64,000 nucleotides of DNA. Origin: Verrucomicrobiota bacterium (GTDB taxonomy: Bacteria; Verrucomicrobiota; Verrucomicrobiia; Chthoniobacterales; SZAS-18). The stretch's first letter is position 1. The number at the start of each line of letters is the position of its first letter. Positions 22,983 through 26,804 of this stretch are shown here, in pieces. Location: contig JAFEGM010000078.1 of the NCBI GenBank assembly GCA_018240025.1, positions 1 to 64,000 of the forward strand. The letters run 5' to 3'. The position numbers and the translations under genes are program-made. A model generated the notes under the pieces. The model was given only the letters and a program-made list of their open reading frames with translations, had not been told where the DNA came from and ran no database searches.

Positions 22983-24416
22983 CTACATCCCCGCCAGTTC
23001 CTCGGCCGGATACGTCCAGATTTCCGAGAGGGTGGGGTGGTAGTGCGGGGCGAGTGCGAAGTCGCGGGCCGTGGCGCGGAGATGCAGCGCCATACCCACC
23101 TCGTGGATGAGATCCGACGCCTCGGGCCCGACGACGGCACCTCCGATCAGGCGGTTGTCGCGCCGATCCGCGAGGAGCTTCACGAATCCCTCGGTTTCGC
23201 CCATCACGATCGACTTGCCGTGGTCGGCAAAGGGATAGGTGGCGACCGCGAAATCGAGTCCCGCCGCCCGCGCCTCGCGCTCGCTCAGGCCGACGACGCC
23301 GATCTGCGGATGGGTGAAGACGCAGAACATCTTGGCCCGGTAGTCCATCGTCTCCTCCCCACCATCGAGCTTGCCCAATGCACGGGCGGCATTGCGCGCG
23401 GCGATCTCTCCCTGCTGGATCGCCAGGTGGACGATCTCGTGCGGTCCGCAGACATCCCCCGCCGCATAGATGTGCTCGGCCGTCGTGCGCTGATTCGCGC
23501 CGGTCTGCGGTCGACCCCGCTCCACGACGAGCCCCGGCACATGCTCCAAGCCCAATCGTTCCGTGGCCGGACTGCGCCCGAGAGCCATGAGAATTTCGGC
23601 TGCTTCCACCGTTTGTTCGCCGCTCGCCGAGGCGAAGCGGACGCGTTTGCGGCCCTCCGGCGTGCGTTCCACGCCGAGCACCTGCGTGCCGAGATGGAAA
23701 GTGACGCCGCGGGCGGACATCGCCTCGACGACCGCATGGGCGATGTCAGCATCGACTTCGCGCAGGGCCTGGCCGCCGCGGTTGATGACCGTGACCTTGG
23801 CGCCCAGCCCGCTCAGGTGGTGAGCGGCCTCCATCGCGATGGCGCCGGCCCCGAGCACGATCAGCGATTCGGGAATCTCAGCCAGTTCCAGCGCATCGTC
23901 GCTCGTCAGGTAGCCCGCTTCCGCCAGCCCAGGCAGATCCACGCGGCTGATGACCGAACCGGTGGCGAGCAGAAACGCCTTGCCGCGCACCGTGCCCAGC
24001 GAGCGGTTGTCCGCATTGAGGATCTCCAGAGAGTGCGCGTCCGTGAATCGGCCGAACCCGCGCACGAATTCGAAGCGCCCACCCGCCAGCTGTCCACGTC
24101 GGTAGCTGGCGAATTCTTCCACCATCCGACGCTTGCGCGCGAGGATCTCGCCCGGCTCCACGCGCAGATTGTCCGCCCGCAGCCCGAACTCGGCCGCGCG
24201 CCGCAGCGTGAGCATGCGGTTGGCCGATTCGATGACCGTCTTGCTCGGCATGCAGCCGCGCAGGATGCAGAGTCCACCGACTTCCTCCCCGCCTTCCACG
24301 ACCAGGGTTTGCAGCCCGAGGCCCGCGGCCGTGCGCGCGGCCGCGTAGCCGGCGCTGCCTCCGCCGAGGATGATGAAGTCGTATTCGGAGCGGGTGGGGT
24401 GGGAATGCTGACTCAT
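22983..24416 (-). CDS. Dihydrolipoamide dehydrogenase/mercuric reductase-like flavoprotein
   Basis: A 477-residue class I pyridine nucleotide-disulfide oxidoreductase. FAD site I-I-L-G-G-G-S-A-G-Y-A at 15-25; redox Cys50 and Cys55 in G-G-L-C-I-L-R-G-C-M-P-S-K, which deviates from the usual G-G-T-C-V; NAD(P) site V-L-G-A-G-A-I-A-M-E; dimerisation-domain H-Y-H-P-T-L-S-E near the end. All redox residues are kept, so it should be active. It is diverged from the neighbouring lpdA, and the substrate may not be lipoamide. Its ATG overlaps the stop of the GT-C gene (ATGA). It is last of a five-gene leftward operon, followed by a terminator. Confidence 0.8.
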   Translation of the reverse strand: MSQHSHPTRSEYDFIILGGGSAGYAAARTAAGLGLQTLVVEGGEEVGGLCILRGCMPSKTVIESANRMLTLRRAAEFGLRADNLRVEPGEILARKRRMVEEFASYRRGQLAGGRFEFVRGFGRFTDAHSLEILNADNRSLGTVRGKAFLLATGSVISRVDLPGLAEAGYLTSDDALELAEIPESLIVLGAGAIAMEAAHHLSGLGAKVTVINRGGQALREVDADIAHAVVEAMSARGVTFHLGTQVLGVERTPEGRKRVRFASASGEQTVEAAEILMALGRSPATERLGLEHVPGLVVERGRPQTGANQRTTAEHIYAAGDVCGPHEIVHLAIQQGEIAARNAARALGKLDGGEETMDYRAKMFCVFTHPQIGVVGLSEREARAAGLDFAVATYPFADHGKSIVMGETEGFVKLLADRRDNRLIGGAVVGPEASDLIHEVGMALHLRATARDFALAPHYHPTLSEIWTYPAEELAGM

Positions 24417-25966
24417 GGAGGGAGATACTCCGGCCGGACGCGCACGAGCGAAAGGGTCGAGTCGCGCACCGTCCCCACCGCCCGGTCGGGCAGTTCGAGG
24501 AAAGCGGGCACGAGTTCCGGGTGGTGCCGCAGGCGGAGATCGAGCGAGCGGGCTCCGTAATTCTCCGGATACATCGCCCCCGCAATCAGGCGGTCGGTCG
24601 AATCGGAGACGATCCAGCGCACCCGCCGCCGACGGATGATTGCGAACGCCTCTGCGTCGTTCGCCGCCGACAGCACCCGCTCGGCGTCGAGCGCCCCGGC
24701 CAATGCCTGATGCGAGCTGCCCGCGATCGCTGGCTGGCCCGACCAGTAAGCCAGCGGCGGACACAGCCACCACGGCGCAAGAATGCCGTCTCGTCGGCTC
24801 GGCTCGTTCTGCGCCTCGGTCCGAATTTCTGCGGCCAGCGCGTGCAGAAGGTCAGCCTCCGCGCCGCGTCCGTGGGGACCGGAACTGGGCCAGGCTGCGG
24901 CGAGCACGGGCAGCAGGGCGACGCCGAGCACAACGCTGCGGCGCGGGATCGGCCAGGCGGCCGCGAGCGGAACCGACAGGGCGATCCCCAGGACCAGGAA
25001 GTAGGCCCAGCGAGCCTGCCAGCAGGTCAGGGCGAGCAGAATCGCAAGGCAGACGGACAGGCTGAGGGAACCGCGGGCGGCCTGGCGCGCGCTGTAGACG
25101 AGCGCTCCCGGAATGAGAACGACGAAGCCCCCGAACCAAGTCAGCAGCGTCCACGACCACGGCGGCTGGGATGCGAGTTCGCCAATGTGTTGCGACCAGC
25201 GCAGAAACCACTCGCTCTCCGCGCCATGGAGCCAGCCGAATTCGAGCCGCCAACCCTCCGCGGCCAAGGCCATGGTCAGCACGACACCCGTGCCAACCAG
25301 TACGAGCGCCGTGAAGCGCTTCGGCTGGCCGGAGGCGATTGCCCTTGCAAGCAGGAACAACAGCACGGGTTCGTAGAAGGAGACCCAAAGCGCCATCCCC
25401 CAAAGGACGCCGGTGCTGAGAGCCGTCCGCGGCCGAGGATCGATCGCGAGCGCGTGCTCCGCCGCTCCGGCCGCCGCCAGCAGCACGAGCAGCAGCGCCT
25501 GATGATCCGGCCGCCCGAGCACGGTTCCGTGGACAGAGATCGGGCTGAGTGCAAACAGCGCCAGCCCTGCCCACCAGCCGGCGGGCCAGCCGGCGCGACG
25601 CGTCAGATTCAGCAAGGCTGCCAGCGCCAGCAGGAAGCAGAGCGGACCGATCCAGGCCCCGGCCAAATCCCGCGCGGCGGCTCCGCAGAACGGATGCAAA
25701 GCCCAGGCGACCGCAGCGATGAGGTAGTCGAGCGGAGCGGTTGCATGCGGCCGGGTGCCCAGCGGGAAATTCTCGAAATCGTGCGCGCGGACGATGCGGC
25801 CCGGCGCGGCCATGACTTGCTCGACTCGGGTCATGCGGGCGTAGCAGTCGCCGTCGACGAAGGCCACGCCCCAGGGGCGGAAGACCTCGCCCCACGATGC
25901 GCAGCGCAGCGCGAGTCCCGCCAGCGCGAGCAGCAGCAGGAGCGCGATTCGGGCCGGCGGCTTCAT
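24413..25966 (-). CDS. STT3/PglB-like GT-C membrane glycosyltransferase
   Basis: A 517-residue protein with about 11-12 hydrophobic spans and a C-terminal soluble part. The first outer loop has V-D-G-D-C-Y-A-R-M (Asp38, Asp40), then F-P-L-G-T-R-P-H and A-P-L-D-Y-L, resembling the start of STT3/AglB/PglB oligosaccharyltransferases. Near residue 400 A-P-W-W-L-C-P-P-L-A-Y-W occupies the place of the STT3 W-W-D-Y-G block, followed by P-A-I-A-G-S-S-H as in STT3. The central Asp of W-W-D is Leu here. It may transfer a lipid-linked sugar to protein or lipid, but activity is uncertain. The gene is one base after cobS and overlaps the flavoprotein gene. Confidence 0.6.
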   Translation of the reverse strand: MKPPARIALLLLLALAGLALRCASWGEVFRPWGVAFVDGDCYARMTRVEQVMAAPGRIVRAHDFENFPLGTRPHATAPLDYLIAAVAWALHPFCGAAARDLAGAWIGPLCFLLALAALLNLTRRAGWPAGWWAGLALFALSPISVHGTVLGRPDHQALLLVLLAAAGAAEHALAIDPRPRTALSTGVLWGMALWVSFYEPVLLFLLARAIASGQPKRFTALVLVGTGVVLTMALAAEGWRLEFGWLHGAESEWFLRWSQHIGELASQPPWSWTLLTWFGGFVVLIPGALVYSARQAARGSLSLSVCLAILLALTCWQARWAYFLVLGIALSVPLAAAWPIPRRSVVLGVALLPVLAAAWPSSGPHGRGAEADLLHALAAEIRTEAQNEPSRRDGILAPWWLCPPLAYWSGQPAIAGSSHQALAGALDAERVLSAANDAEAFAIIRRRRVRWIVSDSTDRLIAGAMYPENYGARSLDLRLRHHPELVPAFLELPDRAVGTVRDSTLSLVRVRPEYLPP

Positions 25967-25967
25967 C

Positions 25968-26804
25968 TCAGGCGAGCGCGGTGGCGCCGAGCGCCGCCAG
26001 TGCGGTGCATTCCGCGACCTCGGTCAATGCGCCGTAGGTGTCCCCGGTCAGCCCGCCGAGCAGCCGAGACCAGCGCCAGGCGAGCCAGCCTGACACGGCG
26101 GCCACGAGTCCGGTGGCGAGGACGAAGCGGGCGAAATCGAGAATGCCGATCGGATCGATCACCACGGGTGGGGAGATGCCCGGATGAAACGCGAGCCGCG
26201 GGCCGACGAGCAGGAGGAGCGGGAGCCAGAAAAGCAGGAGAGTCGCGACCAGCATCTGCTGGCGATCGGCATGTTGCTGGAAGCCGCGTCCGAGGCCGCC
26301 TTCCCGCGCGACCGGAAAGCAGAAGATCCCGATCAGGTTCGCCCACCGCCCGAGCATGGGCGCGAGCAGCGTGGCCAGCCACCAGTGGGTGCCGGCGGCG
26401 GCGAGGAAGAAGACCTTCAGCGCCAGCACGGCGATCAACGCCAGCGCGCCCATCGCGCCGATCCGGCTGTCCTTCATGATCTCCAGCATGCGTTCGCGCG
26501 AGCGGTGGCTCATGACGGCGTCGAACGTGTCCGCCAAGCCGTCGAGATGCAGCCCGCCAGTTAGCAGCGCCCAGACGAAGACGATCAGGGCCGCCCGCAG
26601 AAAGTACGCGTGCGGCCAAAAAACGGTGGCGAAATGCCCCACGAGCAGCCCGATCACGCCGAGCAGCAACCCGACGACCGGCGTCCAAGTGAGCGCGCGA
26701 GCCAGGTTACGGTCGAACTCCGGATCCGGCGTCGGCAGCCAAGGCACGGGCACGATGGTCAGGAAGCGCAGCGCTTCGAAGAATCCGCGGAACCAGTGTG
26801 CCAT
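25968..26804 (-). CDS. cobS: Adenosylcobinamide-GDP ribazoletransferase CobS
   Basis: A 278-residue polytopic membrane enzyme that joins adenosylcobinamide-GDP with alpha-ribazole to give adenosylcobalamin. Hallmarks: F-L-T-I-V-P-V-P near 15; G-G-L-H-L-D-G-L-A-D-T-F-D near 83; the metal-binding M-K-D-S-R-I-G-A-M-G near 110; and G-R-W-A-N near 147. Length is normal. cobU, cobT and cobC, its usual partners, are not in the window. It is the third gene of the leftward moaE operon, one base ahead of the GT-C gene. Confidence 0.93.
   Translation of the reverse strand: MAHWFRGFFEALRFLTIVPVPWLPTPDPEFDRNLARALTWTPVVGLLLGVIGLLVGHFATVFWPHAYFLRAALIVFVWALLTGGLHLDGLADTFDAVMSHRSRERMLEIMKDSRIGAMGALALIAVLALKVFFLAAAGTHWWLATLLAPMLGRWANLIGIFCFPVAREGGLGRGFQQHADRQQMLVATLLLFWLPLLLLVGPRLAFHPGISPPVVIDPIGILDFARFVLATGLVAAVSGWLAWRWSRLLGGLTGDTYGALTEVAECTALAALGATALA

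Follow-up and report, generated by a model that had tools for sequence, protein, structure and literature searches.

What acceptor is served by an oligosaccharyltransferase (OST) homologue in which the sequon-reading WWDYG motif has been replaced? The question is raised by a gene in a 64,000-nucleotide stretch of contig JAFEGM010000078.1 of a Verrucomicrobiota bacterium, referred to here as the window, which encodes an STT3/AglB-like transferase. The gene is an open reading frame of 517 amino acids at positions 24413-25966 on the minus strand, with its ATG at 25966 and its TGA at 24413, and its guanine-cytosine content of 0.73/0.55/0.82 at the three codon positions fits a real gene. An earlier note, made from the sequence alone, had given exactly these coordinates, to which the strand is now added, and had drawn attention to the motifs D-G-D (residues 38-40), P-W-W-L (398-401) and P-A-I-A-G-S-S-H (412-419), all of which are present in the protein. 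From the sequence comparisons presented below, the protein appears rather likely to be an active and compact AglB-type transferase of lipid-linked sugars, whose acceptor would not be selected through the Asn-X-Ser/Thr pocket.

The relationship to the OSTs was established by profile comparisons. When a profile of 29 family members was compared with the PDB, only the soluble domains of the Archaeoglobus fulgidus AglB-S1 and AglB-S2 proteins were significant among the four listed matches (E 6.2e-7 and 6.3e-6; 3vgp at 6.2e-7). Full-length enzymes were reached through two verrucomicrobial STT3 proteins that served as bridges, L033 (AglB) and L035 (PglB-like). L033 matched A. fulgidus AglB-L (3waj) at 1.4e-14 and exceeded the cut-off of PF02516 with 67.9 bits, and L035 matched PglB (5ogl) at 1.5e-11. 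The hhalign alignment between the family profile and L033 spanned 499 columns (Prob 99.1, E 1.1e-18), and that with L035 covered the first outer loops (E 4.5e-6). Three control proteins, which are of the PMT type by Pfam and had each first arisen as a weak PF02516 match, gave E values of 0.37, 0.36 and 0.0027, the last over 68 columns. Moreover, the NCBIfam model TIGR04154 (archaeosortase-associated STT3), of the AglB type, was the best family model and matched 24 of the 29 members (best 2.7e-15), and PF22627 (AglB_core-like) matched five of them (best 8e-4). The PDB profile match and the alignment with L033 thus take the suspected resemblance to OSTs beyond chance, and by these comparisons the window protein is, over its full length, a remote homologue of AglB of the archaeal type and not of the GT39/GT83 enzymes.

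The residues that carry out catalysis in AglB were then located in the family. According to PMC8342417 and PMC7226087, D47, D161 and H163 of A. fulgidus AglB (AfAglB) are metal ligands, E360 of the TIXE motif acts on the acceptor together with the metal and D47, the phosphate has H81 and R426 in its vicinity, and D552 (of WWDYG), Q571 and K618 are close to the peptide. Residues were counted in 31 rows, namely 30 of the 34 genomes with a match plus the member L006, or in 30 rows where one partial row lacked the residue; the other four matching genomes (G406, G408, G425 and G430) gave no locus, and L001 and L028 were left out of all counts as duplicates of the window protein and of L002. The first DXD-type motif, DGDCYARMTR (residues 38-47, positions 25826-25855; all features of the protein are on the minus strand), provides D40 as the counterpart of D47 in 31/31 rows, with D38 in 29/31. 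H74 (25745-25747), the counterpart of H81 near the phosphate site, was invariant (31/31), as were all six residues of the second DXD-type motif, GRPDHQ (residues 151-156, 25499-25516), in which D154 corresponds to D161, H155 to H162 and Q156 stands at the place of H163. The spacings D40-H74 (34) and H74-D154 (80) are identical to those in AglB-L. A conserved turn, WVSFYEP (residues 194-200, 25367-25387), probably periplasmic, keeps W194, E199 and P200 in every row (31/31). Furthermore, the TIXE-like segment HIGE (residues 260-263, 25178-25189) contains E263, the counterpart of E360, in 31/31 rows, with Ile two residues earlier in 26/31, and R319 (25010-25012) corresponds to the phosphate-site residue R426 in 30/30. 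D40, H74, D154, E263 and R319 were invariant even in rows only 28% identical to the window protein. As regards homology and the catalytic residues, the proposal that this is a diverged OST is accordingly supported.

The acceptor side is different. At the WWDYG site the window protein has PWWLCP (residues 398-403, 24758-24775), and an intact WWDYG was found in no family row in either of two possible registers. Among 30 rows, residue 398 was Pro in 27, Val in two and Arg in one; residue 399 was Trp in 29 and Tyr in one; residue 400 was Trp in all 30. Residue 401 varied widely (Leu in 14, Ile in four, Trp, His and Phe in two each, and Gln, Cys, Glu, Ala, Asp and Tyr in one each), residue 402 was Ser in 21, Cys in five, Thr in three and Ala in one, and residue 403 was always Pro. 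The register in which W399-W400-L401 stands for W-W-D was obtained from two-sequence alignments, from 3vu0, from the direct alignment of the family profile with AglB-L and from one of seven MAFFT runs, which held the family and AglB only. The register in which P398-W399-W400 stands for W-W-D was obtained from 3vgp, from the L033 alignment and from the six MAFFT runs that included intermediates, where it runs gap-free to the next loop. In the intermediates the corresponding segments are SWPYG (L033), PWDGG (L075, whose LAPWDGG lies beside LAPWWLC), WWDNG (L035) and RWGYG (L041). Because the alignments with intermediates place it so, the P-W-W register is favoured; in it the first Trp would be replaced by Pro, the second would be kept, the Asp would be replaced by the fixed Trp W400, and L401 would stand at the Tyr. 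The initial reading, which equated the WW with that of WWD and confined the variation to the third residue, was dropped after six of the seven MAFFT runs, and it keeps the support of 3vu0, AglB-L and the two-sequence alignments. The earlier note had read the Asp of W-W-D as Leu; the Asp is indeed missing in either register, but Leu occupies its place only in the less favoured one, and otherwise that place is held by W400. The loop that follows contains SSHQ (residues 417-420, 24707-24718), in the region of NPFQ in AglB-L with the exact pairing unsure, and its H419 was conserved in 30/30 rows. No DK/MI motif was recognised by eye in the family alignment, and variant DK motifs are, by the account in PMC3703281, visible only by structure.

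The architecture of the protein points to a shortened AglB. Residues 366-517 (24416-24871) form a C-terminal globular domain of the short type, as indicated by the 3vgp match (E 6.2e-7) and by comparison of models. An AlphaFold2 model of these 152 residues, of modest confidence (predicted local distance difference test score, pLDDT, 61.5), had AfAglB-S2 as its best PDB match (Foldseek E 2.1e-4; Z 9.5, root-mean-square deviation 3.6, 121 residues aligned), with other OSTs next and DPY19 (Z 6.9), AftD (6.5) and ArnT (4.5) lower. The D154-E263 span comprises 109 residues, compared with 199 in AglB-L and 165 in PglB, and hydropathy read by eye suggested some 10-11 transmembrane helices where 13 are expected, with the shortening between D154 and E263. 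From this short span and the fewer helices, a helix pair and some of external loop EL5 are probably missing.

Compared with known systems, the window protein is like A. fulgidus AglB-S1 and AglB-S2 in its C-terminal domain, by sequence and by modelled fold, and in its shortness (517 residues versus the 591 and 593 given for those proteins by PMC3703281). Unlike it, with its P-W-W-L-C-P and without a recognised DK/MI motif, those proteins have WWDYG and a variant DK motif, according to the same source. It is like AglB-L (3waj, 5gmy, 7e9s) in having counterparts of D47, H81, D161, H162, E360 and R426 and the D47-H81-D161 spacing, and unlike it in the Gln at H163, in lacking an Arg at the place of R154, in its D161-E360 span and in the absence of WWDYG. 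With Campylobacter PglB (5ogl, 3rce) it shares the STT3 plan and, through AglB, counterparts of D56, D154 and E319 (PMC7226087); yet the two are linked only through an intermediate, and neither WWDYG nor a recognised MI motif is present in the window protein. The C-mannosyltransferase DPY19 appeared among the fold matches, below the AglB domains, and was absent from the four listed PDB sequence matches.

The replacement of the motif is not an accident of one genome. The transferase is single-copy in the genome of the window, and of the 57 relative genomes searched, its own included, 34 had a match with an E value of at most 1e-5, mostly within one order. One member, L006 (genome G322), comes from outside the order and inside the class, and L002, from a Chthoniobacterales metagenome-assembled genome, was the sole relative obtained from the scan of genome contigs; no relatives were found among viral contigs in the 36 stretches scanned. 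In a sample of 387 genomes of the phylum, at least five had a match at 1e-8 with the single-protein query and at least 13 matched the profile at 1e-5, at least five of the latter very strongly and over nearly the full length, including the genome of the window; these counts are lower bounds, since up to three first-look candidates were scored per genome. In a tree of 38 rows, rooted at the midpoint only and with several long branches, the 29 family rows formed one clade (100/99), which adjoined a second verrucomicrobial clade (L075 and L077-L080), apart from AglB-L, L033, L035 and L041; L017, with an undetermined stretch, and L032, which is partial, were left out of this tree and of alignment A1. 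The window protein is a member of a family-wide AglB-related variant rather than a lone mutant. A genome of the same genus as the window, G257, which is 97% complete, was without a match in the 57-genome search and may have lost the gene.

Several observations weigh against reading this family as working AglB-type transferases. The window protein had no Pfam match above the cut-offs and no match to PF02516, and TIGR04154 matched it only over residues 7-159 (5e-8), scoring 31.8 bits where the cut-off is 450; single members also weakly matched NF047440 (6.4e-5), TIGR03663 (0.0013) and UpsF (0.0014). The direct match between the family profile and AglB-L residues 22-699, although nearly end to end, was weak (E 0.014). 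At the place of the third metal ligand, Gln (Q156) is found in 31/31 rows, in contrast to the His of AfAglB and the Asp of PglB, and there is no Arg at the place of AfAglB residue 154, with R152 invariant nearby. The full-length AlphaFold2 model, built from two sequences (window and L002), reached a pLDDT of 40.8 and was not used as evidence of the fold; its Foldseek comparison placed OSTs and DPY19 first, with query TM-scores of 0.13-0.25 and no E value below 0.001. The register at the WWDYG site is uncertain by one residue. Finally, no glycan genes were identified among the conserved neighbours in 22 loci, where genes present at a single locus would escape notice.

With these points taken into account, the family retains whole-length homology to GT66, the first and second DXD Asp residues, the TIXE-type Glu and the phosphate-site Arg, and it departs from GT66 in the WWDYG motif, in an Asp, Glu or His ligand as the third DXD residue and, for the window protein, in the cut-offs of PF02516 and TIGR04154. 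Because of these three departures, it was not filed as a GT66 N-oligosaccharyltransferase; it is a homologue of GT66 that probably works like the GT66 enzymes on the donor side. By homology with AglB, the reaction would take place at the outer face of the cytoplasmic membrane, with a sugar linked to polyprenyl phosphate or diphosphate as the predicted donor. A metal would be held at D40 and D154 (with Q156), the metal together with D40 and E263 would activate the acceptor nucleophile for attack on C1 of the sugar, and the phosphate would be stabilised by H74 and R319. Choice of the acceptor would not depend on the +2 hydroxyl of an Asn-X-Ser/Thr sequon. We consider the balance to be about even on the fuller proposal that a bacterial clade has repurposed the STT3/AglB scaffold for another protein site (for example an O-linked one) or a non-protein acceptor in the envelope, with Gln as a metal ligand, a rebuilt pocket of P-W-W-x-[SC]-P and SSH, and an invariant Trp at the sequon-reading Asp. 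Another kind of protein site seems somewhat more likely than a non-protein acceptor.

The strongest alternative is that the lipid-linked sugar is moved to a non-protein acceptor, an envelope polymer or a lipid, on the STT3 scaffold, as ArnT and the arabinosyltransferases do on theirs. Such a role is conceivable, though we would not expect it: it would agree with the loss of the peptide-pocket residues beside a largely kept donor and metal side, with the absence of any WW from the related verrucomicrobial clade L077-L080 and, as a weakly suggestive point, with the bactofilin genes downstream in 10/22 loci, but the profile had no sequence match to the PMT/ArnT-type controls (E 0.37 and 0.36). 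To our knowledge, the acceptors of STT3-type enzymes are all proteins, which was also counted against it.

An ordinary N-oligosaccharyltransferase, acting on Asn-X-Ser/Thr or a looser Asn site with the Trp indoles, Ser/Cys402 or the SSH loop in place of the lost Asp, is unlikely. W399 and W400 are kept in 29/30 and 30/30 rows, Ser, Cys or Thr stands at 402 in 29/30, and plasticity of the WWDYG segment was noted by the authors of PMC3703281. Against this, the Tyr and Gly are also replaced in both registers and no DK/MI motif was recognised. In addition, the C. jejuni PglB changes D459V, W457S, W458R/C, Y460N and G461D are described in PMC3527161 as occurring in inactive clones, changes of the motif abolishing N-glycosylation. 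The member L025 does have WWD in the less favoured register, but its Asp is probably off the Asp place in the favoured one, which weakens this alternative further.

A pseudoenzyme with a structural or regulatory role, which the earlier note had also entertained, might be suggested by the loss of WWDYG and the replacement of the His/Asp ligand by Q156, but it is quite improbable because the metal and phosphate residues are invariant in the aligned rows (D40, H74, D154 and E263 in 31/31, R319 in 30/30). Least probable by far is a GT39/GT83 (PMT/ArnT-type) transferase with a chance WW: these proteins belong to the same broad class of membrane transferases, ArnT reached Z 4.5 with the C-terminal model and one PMT-type control gave E 0.0027 over 68 columns, but the better GT39/GT83 fit that would have spoken for it was not seen, with no match of the PMT-type Pfam models at 0.01 in 29 members, E values of 0.37 and 0.36 for the other two controls, and AfAglB-S2 (Z 9.5) and other OST domains outscoring ArnT in a modest model of the C-terminal domain.

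The preferred reading, an AglB-type transferase with an altered acceptor side, can be set beside the other STT3-like proteins of the phylum. TIGR04154 was matched at 1e-6 in 8 of 337 phylum genomes, and a search with PF02516 at 1e-4 gave matches in 7 of 194. PMT models fit at least three of these seven better, so canonical STT3 proteins seem to be rare. All AglBs carry WWDYG according to PMC4287180. L033 (1438-3570, minus strand, genome G216), a long and clear AglB (TIGR04154 290 bits, PF02516 67.9 bits), has SWPYG in place of WWDYG. Two STT3-like proteins of genome G293, L041 (130-2325, minus strand) and L034 (49-2919, minus strand), have RWGYG and KWGYG, respectively, with Gly for Asp. In the second verrucomicrobial clade (L075 and L077-L080), the three proteins scanned had no Pfam match; L077-L080 have a conserved W-E-N segment and no WW, and L079 and L080 have a long C-terminal extension.

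In the window, the transferase gene is preceded by moaE and cobS. The cobS gene (25968-26804, minus strand; PF02654, 1.3e-54) ends one base before the transferase ATG (TGA-G-ATG), and the stop of the transferase overlaps (ATGA) the start of a downstream gene for a flavin adenine dinucleotide (FAD)-dependent pyridine-nucleotide-disulfide oxidoreductase (22983-24416, minus strand; PF07992, 2.5e-50). The wider neighbourhood was compared in the 22 loci (the window, L002 and 20 others chosen mostly for long contigs) by matching stop-to-stop reading frames, some clusters such as gyrA and cysK being identified by eye only. The FAD oxidoreductase gene lay downstream on the same strand in 11/22 loci (1.6 kb away in one) and was often followed by two bactofilin genes, and gyrB lay on the other side of the transferase in 12/22. 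The genome of the window has three PF02397 phosphoglycosyltransferases, which are uninformative because this family is common, and six exosortase matches, on contigs C62, C57, C67, C22 and C66. Exosortase was present in 32 of the 34 genomes with the transferase versus 14 of the 23 without it (Fisher p 0.004); this association is not relied on, as it is uncorrected for kinship and genome size.

In conclusion, STT3 enzymes are recognised by a sequon-reading WWD pocket, and here a whole bacterial family keeps the catalytic side and replaces the pocket, which makes it a natural experiment on the parts of the enzyme that set the choice of acceptor. The family also draws attention to a transfer step of Verrucomicrobiota that has gone unstudied, and our literature search found no paper on it. 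Should the enzyme prove active, it could be a source of a transferase whose site preference is new.

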